A stretch of DNA of 64,000 bases from Chryseobacterium takakiae (GTDB taxonomy: Bacteria > Bacteroidota > Bacteroidia > Flavobacteriales > Weeksellaceae): assembly GCF_900129385.1 (NCBI RefSeq), contig NZ_FQVO01000001.1:186001-250000 (forward strand), written 5' to 3'. The position numbers were made by a program, and so were the translations under genes. The notes below the pieces were generated by a model. The model did no database searches. It saw only the letters and a list, made by a program, of their open reading frames with translations, and was not told the DNA's origin. Positions 1-32,922 of this stretch are shown one piece after another; the stretch's first letter is position 1; each line of letters begins with the position of its first letter.

Positions 1-850
1 TAGGAAATACTCTTTTAACACACTCAACGTTAAGCAATTCATTTTTTAATCTTGAAATTTCGCTTAAAGTATTTTTTATATTTTCTTCTATAATAATTTT
101 ATAATTAATTAATTGCATGATTATATTTAAACTTAATGAGTTAACATTGTATGGTGCTTTTACGGTATTGATCAATTGTATGATGCTGTCTGATGAATAG
201 GCAACGCCTACCCTTGCTCCAGCCATTCCCCAAGCTTTTGAGAAGGTCTGAAGAGTAATCAGGTTGGGGTATTTTTCCAACAGCTCAATGCATGATTTCT
301 GTTCTGAAAATTCAATGTATGCTTCGTCAACCACTACAATTCCATTGAAATTTTCAATAAAAAACTCCAGATCCTGAATAGAGTTGCCGGTTGGATTGTT
401 GGGTGAGCACAGGAAAAAAATCTTTGGTTTTTCTTGTTCTGAAACTGTTAGAAATAAATCTTTATTAATCTGGAAATTTTTATCCAAGTCTAATGTTACA
501 ACTTTGTTTTCATTAATCGAAGCATAAAATTTATACATGGCAAAAGAAGGATTCATCACCATAATTGAATCTTTTTTTGGTTCGCAGAAGATTTTTATGA
601 TAAGATCAATGAGCTCATCACTTCCGTTTCCTACTGCAATTTGTTGTGCTGAAACATTTTTCAATGCTGCCAGTTTGTTTTTTAATTCTTTCTGAGTTGA
701 ATCCGGATAACGGTTATATTCACCGAAAGGGCTTTCATTGGCATCCATGAACACAGGGTTTTCAAATTCATTCTGATCCCTGAAACTTATGTAAGGCTGC
801 AGTTCCAGAATATTTTTCCGTACTAAACTGTTGATATTAAATTCTTTCAT
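1..850 (-). CDS. hisC: Histidinol-phosphate aminotransferase, C-terminus cut by window edge
   Basis: PLP-dependent enzyme that transaminates imidazole-acetol phosphate to histidinol phosphate in histidine synthesis. About 283 residues are visible from the start codon at 850; the family is usually about 340-350, so the C-terminal end lies left of the window. Visible motifs include MDANESPFGEYNRYPD near the N-terminus and the PLP-lysine segment TFSKAWGMAGARVG around residues 205-220. The ATG overlaps the end of hisD by 14 nt, which indicates translational coupling. It is the third gene after the leader peptide in an operon that should continue with hisB, hisH, hisA, hisF and hisI beyond the edge. 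The identification is firm from the motifs and the context. Confidence 0.95.
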   Translation of the reverse strand, partial: MKEFNINSLVRKNILELQPYISFRDQNEFENPVFMDANESPFGEYNRYPDSTQKELKNKLAALKNVSAQQIAVGNGSDELIDLIIKIFCEPKKDSIMVMNPSFAMYKFYASINENKVVTLDLDKNFQINKDLFLTVSEQEKPKIFFLCSPNNPTGNSIQDLEFFIENFNGIVVVDEAYIEFSEQKSCIELLEKYPNLITLQTFSKAWGMAGARVGVAYSSDSIIQLINTVKAPYNVNSLSLNIIMQLINYKIIIEENIKNTLSEISRLKNELLNVECVKRVFP

Positions 851-2129
851 TTTGTTCTTTTAATCTTATGCTTACGGCATTTTTGTGTGCAAATAATCCT
901 TCTGCTTCCGCCATTACTTCTATTGTTTTTCCTAAATTTTGTAACCCCTGCTCGGATAAATTCTGAAAAGTAATTTTCTTCACGAAACTATCGAGGGAAA
1001 CACCGCTGTAATTTTTTGCAAAACCGTTGGTGGGGAGCGTGTGATTGGTTCCGCTTGCATAATCTCCCGCACTTTCACATGAATAATTTCCCAGGAAAAC
1101 AGAACCTGCATTCCGGATTTGCTGAATATATTTTTCAAAATTATTGACTGCTAAAATCAAGTGTTCCGGCGCGTACAAATTGCTGAATTCCAAAGCTTCA
1201 TCAATTGAGTCCAGTAAAATAAAATGGCTGTTTTTTAAAGATTCTGCCGCCATTTCATTTCTCGGAAGTGCTTCAAGCTGTTTTTGGGTTTCAAGAATGG
1301 TTTCATCAAGAATTTTCTCATCTGTGGAAAGGAAAATCACCTGGCTGTCACTCCCATGTTCTGCCTGAGAAAGTAAATCGGCAGCACAAAATTCCGGAAC
1401 TGCATTTTCATCGGCAATCACAAGAACTTCACTTGGTCCGGCAGGCATATCGATGGCAATATTGTAGTTTTGCGCATATTCTTTAGCCGCTACAACATAC
1501 TGATTTCCAGGCCCGAAAATTTTGTAGACATTCGGGATATTTTCTGTTCCAAAAGTCATTGCTGCAATTGCCTGAGCGCCTCCTGTTTTGAATATTTTGG
1601 TTACGCCGCAAAGCTTTGCCGTATACAAAATTGCAGGATTGGTATTCCCGTTTTTATCCGGTGGCGTACAAAGGATCATTTCCTCACACCCTGCTAACTG
1701 AGCCGGAATGGCAAGCATTAAAACCGTAGAAAATAAAGGCGCTGTTCCGCCGGGAATATAAATGCCAACTTTTTCGATTGGGCGGTTTTCTCTCCAACAA
1801 ACGACTCCGTTTGTTGTTTCAATCTTTTCAATCGTTGGAATTTGTGAAGCGTGAAATCTCGTAATATTCGATTTCGCTTCCTGAATGGCTGCTTTCAGCT
1901 CTTCACTGATTAGACTTTCAGCGGCTTCAATTTCCTTTTCAGAAACTTTAATATCTTTTATTTCAGCAGAATCAAATTTTTCAGCAAAATCAATCAGCGC
2001 CTGATCTCCTCTGTTCTTTACTTCATCGAAAATTCCGGCAACTATTTCGGTTAACTGTTCTCTTTTGATAACAGGTCTTTGTATCAGTTCAGACCATGTT
2101 TTTTTTATTGGATATTTGTTTACTTTCAT
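837..2129 (-). CDS. hisD: Histidinol dehydrogenase
   Basis: Zinc enzyme that oxidises L-histidinol to L-histidine in two NAD-dependent steps. At 430 residues it has the usual family length. Signature segments are visible in order: PAGPSEVLVIAD (about 228-240), the QAEHGSDSQ motif with its catalytic and zinc residues, YAPEHL, and SAGDYASGTNHTLPT towards the C-terminus. The start ATG lies one base downstream of the hisG stop codon, and the 3' end overlaps the hisC start, so hisG-hisD-hisC are read as one coupled transcript. Regulation is expected through the attenuator upstream of hisG. Confidence 0.97.
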   Translation of the reverse strand: MKVNKYPIKKTWSELIQRPVIKREQLTEIVAGIFDEVKNRGDQALIDFAEKFDSAEIKDIKVSEKEIEAAESLISEELKAAIQEAKSNITRFHASQIPTIEKIETTNGVVCWRENRPIEKVGIYIPGGTAPLFSTVLMLAIPAQLAGCEEMILCTPPDKNGNTNPAILYTAKLCGVTKIFKTGGAQAIAAMTFGTENIPNVYKIFGPGNQYVVAAKEYAQNYNIAIDMPAGPSEVLVIADENAVPEFCAADLLSQAEHGSDSQVIFLSTDEKILDETILETQKQLEALPRNEMAAESLKNSHFILLDSIDEALEFSNLYAPEHLILAVNNFEKYIQQIRNAGSVFLGNYSCESAGDYASGTNHTLPTNGFAKNYSGVSLDSFVKKITFQNLSEQGLQNLGKTIEVMAEAEGLFAHKNAVSIRLKEQNERI

Positions 2130-2130
2130 G

Positions 2131-2988
2131 TCAAATCACCATTTTATCGATTGGAATTATTAAAATATCCTGTGCTCCTTTGTCTTTGAGCTCATCAATT
2201 ACTTCCCAGAAACGGTCTTCATCGATTACCGAATGGATGCTGCTCCAGCCTTCTTCTGCCAGTGGAATGACAGTCGGACTTTTAAGAACCGGAAGTGTTT
2301 TTGAAACGATTTCGATTTTCTCATTCGGGACATTCATCAGGATATATTTGGAATTCTTTGCTTTTAAAACCGCTTTGATCCGGAATACAAATTTTTCAAG
2401 AATAGCCGTTTTTTCTTTGCTGAGCTCTGATGTTTTGGCAAGAACCGCCTGTGAAGTAAGAAGCGTTACGGTTTCTCTCAGTCCGTTTTTAAATAGAGTG
2501 CTTCCGGAGCTTACAATATCGCAGATTCCGTCGGCAAGACCGATGTTCGGAGCGATTTCCACCGAACCGGAAATAATGTGAATCTCAGCGGAAATATTAT
2601 TTTGATCAAGAAAATTTTTAAGGGTATTCGGATAAGAAGTGGCAATCTTTTTACCCTGAAAATATTGAATGTCATCTGTTTCAATTTCCTTTGGAATGGC
2701 AAGAGAAACCCTGCATTTTGAGAATCCCAGAGGCAGCACAATATCTATTTTTTTCTGTTTTTCTACTAAAAGATTTTCACCTACGATAGCAATATCTACT
2801 ACGCCGTCTTCCAGATATTGCGGAATATCCGAATTTCGAAGGTACATGATTTCCATCGGGAAATTATCTACGGAAACTTTAAGCTGGTCTTTACCGTTAT
2901 TAACGAAAATGCCGCAGTCTTTAAGGAGCTGAAGAGATTCTTCGTAAAGCCTTCCGCTTTTTTGTATCGCAATTTTTAATATACTCAT
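2131..2988 (-). CDS. hisG: ATP phosphoribosyltransferase, long form
   Basis: Catalyses the first committed step of histidine synthesis, joining ATP and PRPP. With 285 residues it matches the long HisG class that carries a C-terminal ACT-like domain for histidine feedback and does not need HisZ. The PRPP-binding loop is visible as DIVSSGSTLFKNGL (about 163-176). I place the start at the ATG at 2988 (protein MSILKIAIQKSGRLYEES), because this aligns with the usual HisG N-terminus; an in-frame upstream start at 3015 would add nine residues without family support. It is the first structural gene after the histidine leader peptide and attenuator. Confidence 0.95.
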   Translation of the reverse strand: MSILKIAIQKSGRLYEESLQLLKDCGIFVNNGKDQLKVSVDNFPMEIMYLRNSDIPQYLEDGVVDIAIVGENLLVEKQKKIDIVLPLGFSKCRVSLAIPKEIETDDIQYFQGKKIATSYPNTLKNFLDQNNISAEIHIISGSVEIAPNIGLADGICDIVSSGSTLFKNGLRETVTLLTSQAVLAKTSELSKEKTAILEKFVFRIKAVLKAKNSKYILMNVPNEKIEIVSKTLPVLKSPTVIPLAEEGWSSIHSVIDEDRFWEVIDELKDKGAQDILIIPIDKMVI

Positions 2989-3055
2989 TTCACTTTTGTT
3001 GTGTCTGAGTACCAAATGGTGAATTGAAATAAATTGCCTGGGAAGAATTTAGAAC

Positions 3056-3087
3056 AAAAAAACCGCCTGTTTACTCAGACGGTTTTT
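3056..3087 (-). terminator. Histidine-operon attenuator (rho-independent hairpin)
   Basis: On the minus strand AAAACCGTCTG and CAGGCGGTTTT form a stem around the loop AGTAAA, with one G-U pair, followed by seven U residues. It lies between the His-rich leader peptide and hisG, not at a gene end. The 5' arm CCGTCT is also perfectly complementary to AGACGG at the end of the leader reading frame, so a competing antiterminator can form. Confidence 0.85.
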
Positions 3088-3132
3088 AATTATTTTGATT
3101 TTTAACATAGTCATATATCAATCAATTCCGTC

Positions 3133-3183
3133 TTAGCAGAGATGATGATGATAATGATGTACTGTTAAAAAATTCGGTTTCAT
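3133..3183 (-). CDS. hisL: Histidine operon leader peptide
   Basis: A 16-codon frame encodes MKPNFLTVHHYHHHLC and ends in TAA. Five of six consecutive codons (positions 9-14) are His CAT codons, the hallmark of a ribosome-sensing his leader. It has an A-rich sequence before the ATG, as is usual in Bacteroidota, and sits about 20 nt below a TAAATTTG promoter box. The antiterminator segment AGACGG begins inside the stop codon: a ribosome at the stop would cover it and permit termination, while one stalled at the His codons would leave it free. Function is inferred from this arrangement. Confidence 0.87.
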   Translation of the reverse strand: MKPNFLTVHHYHHHLC

Positions 3184-3203
3184 TTTGTTTGAATTGTATG
3201 GTG

Positions 3204-3235
3204 CAAATTTAAAGCAATATATTTCACAAATCCAA
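3204..3235 (-). promoter_or_regulatory. Promoter of the his operon
   Basis: The minus strand shows TAAATTTG (3204-3211), matching the flavobacterial -7 consensus TAnnTTTG, with a TTG 21 nt upstream (3233-3235). This puts transcription start near 3197, just ahead of the leader peptide ATG at 3183. Confidence 0.65.
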
Positions 3236-32771: not shown

Positions 32772-32866
32772 GAAGCTTTTTCCCGCTTTCCACTGTATCT
32801 TTTCGGGTACGGGCTCCGCTTTGCTCCGCCCGCACCCGAAAAGGATGTCGTTTCAATCGGGGCTAA
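32772..32866. repeat. Palindromic GC-rich intergenic element
   Basis: CTTTTCGGGTACGGGC (32799-32814) and GCCCGCACCCGAAAAG (32828-32843) form a 16-bp stem with one A-C mismatch, which becomes a G-U pair in minus-strand RNA. Flanks AGC...CCCG (32774-32785) and CGGGGCT (32858-32864) can close an outer helix. The core is far richer in GC than its surroundings. From memory, similar elements recur in flavobacterial genomes; only one copy is seen here. Confidence 0.7.
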
Positions 32867-32922
32867 TAAGACGTAAATTTCAAAAAAGTTAAAATTTCCC
32901 GGTAAATAATGTGAGAAATATT

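Follow-up and report, generated by a model that had tools for sequence, protein, structure and literature searches.

Textbook accounts usually present the attenuators of amino-acid operons as switches that act on transcription alone. The leader of the his operon in Chryseobacterium takakiae raises the question of whether a single ribosome-sensed decision can also govern translation of the operon's first gene. A preliminary description of this locus had listed a promoter box, a His-codon leader, the segment AGACGG and its complement CCGTCT, an inner TTGATT/AATCAA pairing, and a terminator ending in seven T residues, and had called the whole a complete, classical his attenuator. Here, we describe the locus in the window, i.e., the entire 64,000-nucleotide stretch of DNA that was analysed, and in relatives across the phylum. 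From sequence comparison and modelling, we lean slightly toward the view that the hisG leader is a ribosome-sensed attenuator that controls both transcription and access to the hisG start codon, in the direction proposed below.

Organization of the hisG leader

Every element on the earlier list is found on the minus strand between 3211 and 3056 (Table 1). The list is not complete, however: two further elements lie downstream, at 3012–3003 and 2988–2981. Nor does “classical” fit well, because the downstream segment at 3012–3003 pairs with the terminator loop and 5′ arm and with the hisG start, which suggests a second, translational output. We number the segments as regions 2 to 6 and refer to their pairings as 2:3 (antiterminator), 3:4 (terminator), 3:5, and 5:6. 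The names hisG, hisD-like, and hisC-like are those we presume for the operon genes, and the assignment of the TAnnTTTG-type box rests on what we take to be the −7/−33 promoter consensus.

Table 1. Features of the his operon leader and adjoining genes in the window
Feature	Position	Strand	Basis
Promoter-like −7 box TAAATTTG	3204..3211	−	Read from sequence
TTTG, fits a −33 element	3236–3233, 21 nt upstream of TAAATTTG	−	Sequence
Leader peptide gene, ATG to TAA, product MKPNFLTVHHYHHHLC, 5 His codons	3133..3183	−	Sequence, ORF counts, relatives
Region 2, antiterminator 5′ segment AGACGGAATTGATT, core AGACGG at 3133–3128	3120..3133	−	CCGTCT complement, swap test, geometry
TTGATT, inner part of region 2	3125–3120	−	Sequence
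AATCAA, inner antiterminator partner of TTGATT	3095..3100	−	Sequence
Region 3, terminator 5′ arm AAAAACCGTCTG (3087–3076) and loop AGTAAA (3075–3070)	3070..3087	−	
CCGTCT(G) within the terminator 5′ arm	3082–3076	−	Sequence
Region 4, terminator 3′ arm CAGGCGG (3069–3063) and T7 (3062–3056)	3056..3069	−	Sequence, folding, covariation
Region 5, GTACTCAGAC; its TACTCAGAC pairs with region 3, its GTACTCA with the hisG start	3003..3012	−	
Region 6, hisG start codon and codons 2–3 (ATGAGTAT); TGAGTAT pairs with region 5	2981..2988	−	
hisG (ATP phosphoribosyltransferase), first gene past the leader	2131..2988	−	ATG at 2988; hisG-anchored matches
hisD-like gene, second in the operon	837..2129	−	Read from sequence
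hisC-like gene, after the hisD-like gene, runs to the window edge		−	Read from sequence

The leader carries the motif HHYHHH, in which five of six codons are His, as first reported; among 763 short ATG-initiated ORFs (7–40 codons) in the window, it is the only one with more than three His codons per seven (it has five). The first base of AGACGG is the last base of the leader stop codon. From the terminator T tract, 43 nt lead to region 5 and a further 14 nt to the hisG ATG. The sequence TGAGTA, spanning the top of the terminator arm and the loop, is a copy of hisG positions +2 to +7. At 9 bp for 3:5 and 7 bp for 5:6, the window's pairings are among the shorter ones. The RNA from 3199 to 3054 folds with z = −4.6, a value equalled by 0 of 200 shuffles. 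The terminator is present as described, with one correction of its extent: the A-tract and T-tract pair as well, so that the computed hairpin spans 3087–3058. In an Rfam scan of the 64 kb window at the gathering threshold, the only matches were Flavo-1 and a tRNA, with none to His_leader; similarly, no T-box or known riboswitch was matched among the curated families in the window. The Flavo-1 RNA (RF01705; 68.1 bits) lies at 32775–32868 on the minus strand.

Loci compared and scoring

Regions upstream of hisG were collected at several taxonomic depths. From named records we took the best 80 of 540 relatives, among which the closest hisG records were from Chryseobacterium and one Weeksellaceae bin. 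In the family, 97 of 148 genomes searched had a match, and the 30 best loci plus 40 further matches were taken, with 27 of the 97 left out. In the order, 61 of 119 genomes had a match and 30 loci were taken, 21 of them new; genomes of 600 kb with hisG were left out. In the phylum, 171 of 198 genomes had a match, and 30 loci (17 new) plus 20 more were taken. The resulting 179 Flavobacteriales loci comprise a Chryseobacterium set of 99 (the window, L001–L080, and L083–L100, with some species probably included twice), 51 loci from the same family, and 29 from other families of the order; 29 other Bacteroidota loci served as the comparison outside Flavobacteriales. One locus, L152, was misplaced and was scored as a miss. 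Two hisG matches were split, one into pieces ~1.7 kb apart (G080:C1:786927-789518) and one into adjacent pieces with a stop in one (G066:C1:366633-367477).

Loci on the minus strand were left out of the sets of 143, 148, and 140 loci and of the 60-sequence stem analysis described below. Score thresholds were chosen after the data were seen. Covariation of the pairings was measured on a MAFFT alignment of 89 sequences (87 distinct) built without regard to these pairings. Folding with 3:5 forced used 80 loci with a 3:5 score of at least 18, for which Chryseobacterium was thinned to the window and every sixth numbered locus; forced energies were compared for all 161 loci with a 3:5 score of at least 18. 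Shared ancestry inflates both the covariation and the swap tests.

Conservation of the attenuator core

A scripted search found a His leader before hisG at 176 of the 179 Flavobacteriales loci and at 24 of 29 other Bacteroidota loci. A leader together with a T-run terminator, scored by script at the sequence level, was found at 173/179 and 19/29 loci, respectively; the terminators of L145 and L151 are bulged and escaped the script. The Flavobacteriales loci without a leader are L114, the misplaced L152, and L063, the sole miss in the Chryseobacterium set (98/99), whose contig ends early. Of 153 distinct Flavobacteriales upstream regions, 140 contain a TAnnTTTG box no more than 60 nt from the leader ATG, as compared to 2.8% of mononucleotide shuffles. 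The stem of the terminator covaries among 60 distinct sequences. The proposed complementarity of AGACGG to the terminator 5′ arm was also borne out, since regions 2 and 3 change together: in a swap test over 172 loci with 44 distinct arms, region 2 scored 16.3 against its own region 3 and 13.9 ± 0.4 against swapped ones (0/5,000).

The suggestion that a ribosome stalled at the His codons frees AGACGG, while one at the stop codon covers it, fits the spacing across loci. In no fewer than 133 of 143 loci, the distance from the first His codon to the start of region 2, taken as the best complement found, is 20–28 nt. Among the loci listed, the end of the leader stop falls anywhere from ~23 nt past to 2 nt ahead of the region 2 start, a position from which a terminating ribosome can reach region 2. 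This is the geometry expected for ribosome-sensed attenuation, with region 2 either left free by a stalled ribosome or occluded. A protector (1:2) hairpin is predicted with moderate strength, folding giving region 2 a paired probability above 0.5 in 111 of 172 untranslated leaders. Together, the conserved leader, 2:3 pairing, and terminator make ribosome-sensed his attenuation before hisG a well-supported reading of the sequences.

A transcriptome study of Flavobacterium psychrophilum reports strong indications that leader peptides attenuate amino-acid operons, together with a conserved structured element before hisG that occurs in other Flavobacteriaceae genera and lacks an Rfam match (PMC9723704). 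That element very likely belongs to the same attenuator family. We regard the attenuator core described here as real and, given this report, as belonging to a type already known.

The leader peptide is conserved past its His codons. In the window (3183–3133) and in L001–L080, it mostly begins MKPNFLT or MKPxFLA and continues HHY..HLC. Tyr codons alternate with His codons in the leader. Both features possibly reflect constraint from the 1:2 pairing or on the peptide. Another short ORF that contains His codons (e.g., MHVNHHILKPV) begins 4 nt past the leader stop at L168, L176, L177, and L179.

A downstream segment complementary to the terminator and to the hisG start

Region 5 has two complementary partners: the 5′ arm and loop of the terminator (3:5), and the start codon of hisG together with codons 2–3 (5:6). 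It follows that the terminator loop region repeats the first hisG codons. In many Chryseobacterium loci, TTTACTCAGAC in region 5 complements GTCTGAGTAAA in region 3; when G-U pairs are counted, 11/11 pairs are present in 69 of 81 loci, as compared to 3 of 1,620 shuffled tails; region 5 also reads TTTACTCA, complementing the hisG start aUGAGUAAA. Where Chryseobacterium loci depart from a perfect 3:5 complement, they mostly do so by G-U pairs, an argument for pairing at the RNA level.

Covariation was assessed over the 87 distinct sequences. For 3:5, 92.4% of cells are paired, while slid controls range from 20.4% to 42.3%; both-side changes occur at 9 of 11 pairs, with 84 such cells, and 0 of 500 shuffles scored as high. 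For 5:6, 87.9% of cells are paired (slid controls, 27.8–38.8%), and both-side changes occur at five of nine pairs, with 58 such cells. The number of cells and the covariation score for 5:6 exceeded the shuffles (0/500); the numbers of 5:6 pairs with both-side changes (5 vs 4.5) and of further pair types (15 vs 13.8) were not above the shuffles. The GAC end of region 5 opposes the terminator arm only, and its three columns hold 48 both-side changes. Since these columns covary with the terminator arm alone, 3:5 is not a by-product of 5:6. Exchanging tails between genomes (64 distinct types) lowered the 3:5 score from 22.0 to 16.3 ± 0.4 and the 5:6 score from 15.7 to 13.3 ± 0.3.

The hisG start, terminator loop, and region 5 also change as a trio: a start of ATGAACAAA goes with the loop TGAACAAA and region 5 TTTGTTCA, ATGAGTATT with TGAGTATATC and GATATACTCA, ATGAGTACT with TGAGTACA and TGTACTCA, and ATGAGTTCA with TGAGTTTT and AGAACTCG. 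That several different three-way solutions appear in the sequences argues against shared ancestry as the sole explanation of the covariation. The second hisG codon is AGT or AAC in 156 of 161 Flavobacteriales loci with 3:5, as compared to 4 of 13 without; the start-mimic pairing thus appears to constrain hisG codon choice. The end of region 5 lies 13 to about 33 nt before the hisG start across loci. We are highly confident that both pairings exist, and we think a translational role probable.

Distribution of the design

A single segment fits both 3:5 and 5:6 at 153 of the 179 Flavobacteriales loci: 98/99 in the Chryseobacterium set, where the miss is the incomplete contig L063, 38/51 in the rest of the family, and 17/29 in other Flavobacteriales. 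An earlier set gave 127 of 148 loci, as compared to 21 of 2,960 mononucleotide shuffles. Outside Flavobacteriales, both pairings were scored at 2 of 29 loci. One of these, L193, is a palindromic repeat that we judged to be a chance match. The other, L175 (from G388, classified at the phylum level only), has a full Flavobacteriales-type element including region 5 and looks real; it perhaps reflects transfer of the his operon.

The 25 misses outside the Chryseobacterium set are of several kinds. No leader was found at two (L114 and L152). The 3:5 pairing is kept with a weak, shifted, or replaced 5:6 at L110/L150, L138, L139, L147, and L158, and L146 and L170 have both pairings on different or adjacent segments. 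L109 falls just under the threshold for 3:5, and L136, L137, and L140 are weak; a region 5-like segment is visible by eye at L145 and L151. Region 5 is absent in nine leader-bearing Flavobacteriales loci (L157, L160, L161, L163, L166, L169, L172, L173, and L185). At L165, in a genome that is 83% complete, the leader, hairpin, region 5, and start mimic are present, the T-run is absent, and the hisG start lies inside a predicted hairpin. Judging from this single sequence, L165 may represent the translational half standing alone, with the terminator dropped.

Leaders of other amino-acid genes were compared in 12 genomes; at hisG, 10 of these 12 exceed the threshold for 3:5. A Trp leader and terminator precede trpE at 11 of 12 loci (L230 and L232–L241; L231 gave no start), and a Phe-rich leader and terminator precede pheA at 5 of 12 (L222 and L226–L229). 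The 3:5 design was found at none of the trpE loci in the 12 genomes (top 3:5 score, 14.5), and the design was likewise absent from the pheA leaders (top 3:5 score, 12.5); at a single trpE locus, L238, the start has a complement that looks like chance (score, 15), and 3:5 is lacking. Only 6 of the 12 genomes yielded ilvD, with an Ile/Val-rich leader and terminator at one (L245), where 3:5 was not found. Since the trpE and pheA leaders of these genomes lack it, the design is not a usual side effect of placing a terminator before a start codon.

Folding and energetics

The 3:5 duplex is stronger than 5:6 in all of 140 loci, which were also selected by their 3:5 score. When 3:5 is forced in the 80-locus set, the hisG start is unpaired with a probability of 0.61, as compared to 0.32; the start is more open by >0.2 in 58 of 80 loci, and the reverse occurs in none. 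In example folds of the closed terminator state, region 5 is paired, mostly with the start. We had initially supposed that 3:5 conceals the region of the hisG start, and abandoned this idea once the folds showed region 5 and the start codon paired to each other.

The forced energies depend on how much RNA has been made. When the RNA extends to just short of the start codon, 3:5 is favoured over 2:3 in 156 of 161 loci. Region 5 could therefore displace region 2 from region 3 before the start is made. On the same RNA, 3:4 is favoured over 3:5 in 90 of 161. On RNA that includes the start codon, 3:4 is more stable than 3:5 in 149 of 161 loci. There, 3:5 is favoured over 2:3 (with 5:6) in just 53 of 161, or 19 of 98 in the Chryseobacterium set; in the other 108 of the 161, 2:3 is equal or better. 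In the window, 2:3 wins with the start present, at −31.9 vs −29.0 for 3:5. Without forcing, folding at equilibrium mostly yields 3:4 and a paired region 5 for either ribosome position. Indeed, over 143 loci, equilibrium folding did not separate a stalled from a terminating ribosome, with a mean 3:4 probability of 0.86 vs 0.92 and mean unpaired probability of region 5 of 0.25 vs 0.26. Given these equilibrium results and the forced energies with the start present, the mechanism proposed below needs co-transcriptional kinetics.

A proposed relay from terminator to start codon, and its alternatives

We propose the following relay. With ample His, the leader ribosome would reach the stop codon and cover region 2, 3:4 would form, and most transcripts would terminate. 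On read-through RNA, the closed hairpin would hide the start-mimic loop, 5:6 would form, and hisG would stay untranslated. Under His shortage, the ribosome would stall on the His codons, 2:3 would hold region 3, and polymerase would pass; region 5, made before the start codon, would then take region 3 from region 2, and the start would be freed. The elements, their complementarity and covariation, and the conserved geometry are observed at the sequence level; the advantage of 3:5 over 2:3 before the start is made, and the opening of the start by forced 3:5, are computed from folding models. We infer from these that 3:5 forms on antiterminated RNA, and likewise all that would happen in the cell, including the sign of the effect on translation; the stated direction has, in our estimate, a little better than an even chance of being correct. 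We give about even odds to the fuller picture, in which the terminator loop acts as a start decoy, one segment arbitrates between decoy and real start, and a single decision, made by the leader ribosome, travels on from RNA polymerase to the initiating ribosome by direct masking of the start codon. In that picture, decoy, arbiter, and hisG codons 2–4 would have co-evolved, the relay would have spread through Flavobacteriales at hisG and not be seen at trpE or pheA, and L165 would perhaps keep only the translational half.

The relay's sign could be otherwise. 3:5, or a pseudoknot between region 5 and the loop, could be an OFF state on leaky transcripts, or could serve mRNA protection or processing, with 5:6 a fixed brake. 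Some loci keep 3:5 with a weak or moved 5:6, 5:6 is compatible with 2:3 once the start is made, and region 5 ends near the initiating ribosome, 13 to about 33 nt before the start. We nevertheless consider this unlikely, as forcing 3:5 closed the start by >0.2 in no locus and opened it by that much in 58/80, and as 3:5 is expected where the terminator is unformed, because 3:4 and 3:5 compete for one arm. It is quite unlikely, in our view, that only 2:3 and 3:4 alternate, as in single-output, classical his attenuation, and that neither region 5 nor the start mimic takes part in regulation. The covariation of 3:5 and 5:6 is far above that of slid controls, partly at columns serving one pairing, and 3:5 scores 22.0 with its own tail and 16.3 ± 0.4 with swapped tails. 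This stands against the fact that the core does occur without region 5 in other Bacteroidota (leader and T-run terminator at 19/29, both pairings at 2/29) and in the nine leader-bearing Flavobacteriales loci named above, and that the trpE and pheA leaders of the 12 genomes do not have it.

Two further explanations place the complementarity elsewhere. One possibility is action in trans, in which the loop of the terminated leader RNA would bind region 5 on full-length his transcripts, or other mRNAs altogether; the terminator loop does complement a site near a start. The Sinorhizobium trp leader RNA is said to act in trans too. A precedent also comes from a report that the Sinorhizobium trp leader peptide is trans-acting (PMC7298713). 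In the window's own genome, however, exact matches to TACTCAGAC-N14-ATG are found at hisG only, matches with up to two mismatches are near control (243 vs 220) in the pattern search, and a cis partner lies ~60 nt away; action in trans is thus very unlikely. That GTCTGAGTAAA and TTTACTCAGAC form an inverted repeat would also suit a DNA operator bound by a regulator, with no RNA pairing at all. We regard this as extremely improbable, because departures from the perfect complement are mostly G-U as RNA, and the repeat, unlike a fixed operator, varies by lineage along with hisG codons 2–4.

Relation to known attenuators

For a start-codon mimic or a region 5 in an attenuator, a search of the open-access literature returned nothing. 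From the sequences, the start-mimic relay appears to be a new addition to a known attenuator type, well supported as structure and unproven as mechanism. A loop that covaries with the start codon of the first gene points to one decision governing both transcription and translation. The element is compact and experimentally testable, and it offers a route to study the gating of translation by start-codon masking, independent of Shine-Dalgarno sequences.

The enteric his operon attenuator (hisL; Rfam His_leader) has a His leader peptide and mutually exclusive antiterminator and terminator structures upstream of hisG. The leader described here shares the His-codon peptide, the exclusive structures, and the site before hisG; unlike the enteric leader, it has region 5, lacks an Rfam match at the gathering threshold, and occurs in a host group generally without Shine-Dalgarno sequences. 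To our knowledge, the enteric model includes no region that pairs with both the terminator loop and the hisG start. The trp operon of Bacillus subtilis, controlled by TRAP, combines a terminator with a hairpin that hides the first gene's start on read-through RNA. The hisG leader has a predicted terminator and, in the proposed relay, would likewise mask the start on read-through RNA; its likely sensor is the leader ribosome and not a protein.

In its section on the hisG element, the F. psychrophilum account describes neither a region 5 nor a start mimic or translational control (PMC9723704). Passages of a study of translation in this group describe Bacteroidia as generally lacking Shine-Dalgarno sequences, with reduced structure and an A-rich context contributing to initiation in F. 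johnsoniae (PMC8710568). Direct masking of the start codon is sensible in such a setting. The nearest mechanism to the proposed hisG relay is that of B. subtilis vmlR, for which passages of the report describe ribosome stalling on a uORF that releases a terminator, and propose an induced fold that frees a hidden Shine-Dalgarno sequence (PMC9226507). The proposed relay would share with vmlR, as described there, both a stall-released terminator and a hairpin over the translation start region. vmlR senses an antibiotic and hides a Shine-Dalgarno sequence, whereas in the hisG leader it is the start codon itself that would be hidden, and that is repeated in the terminator loop region.
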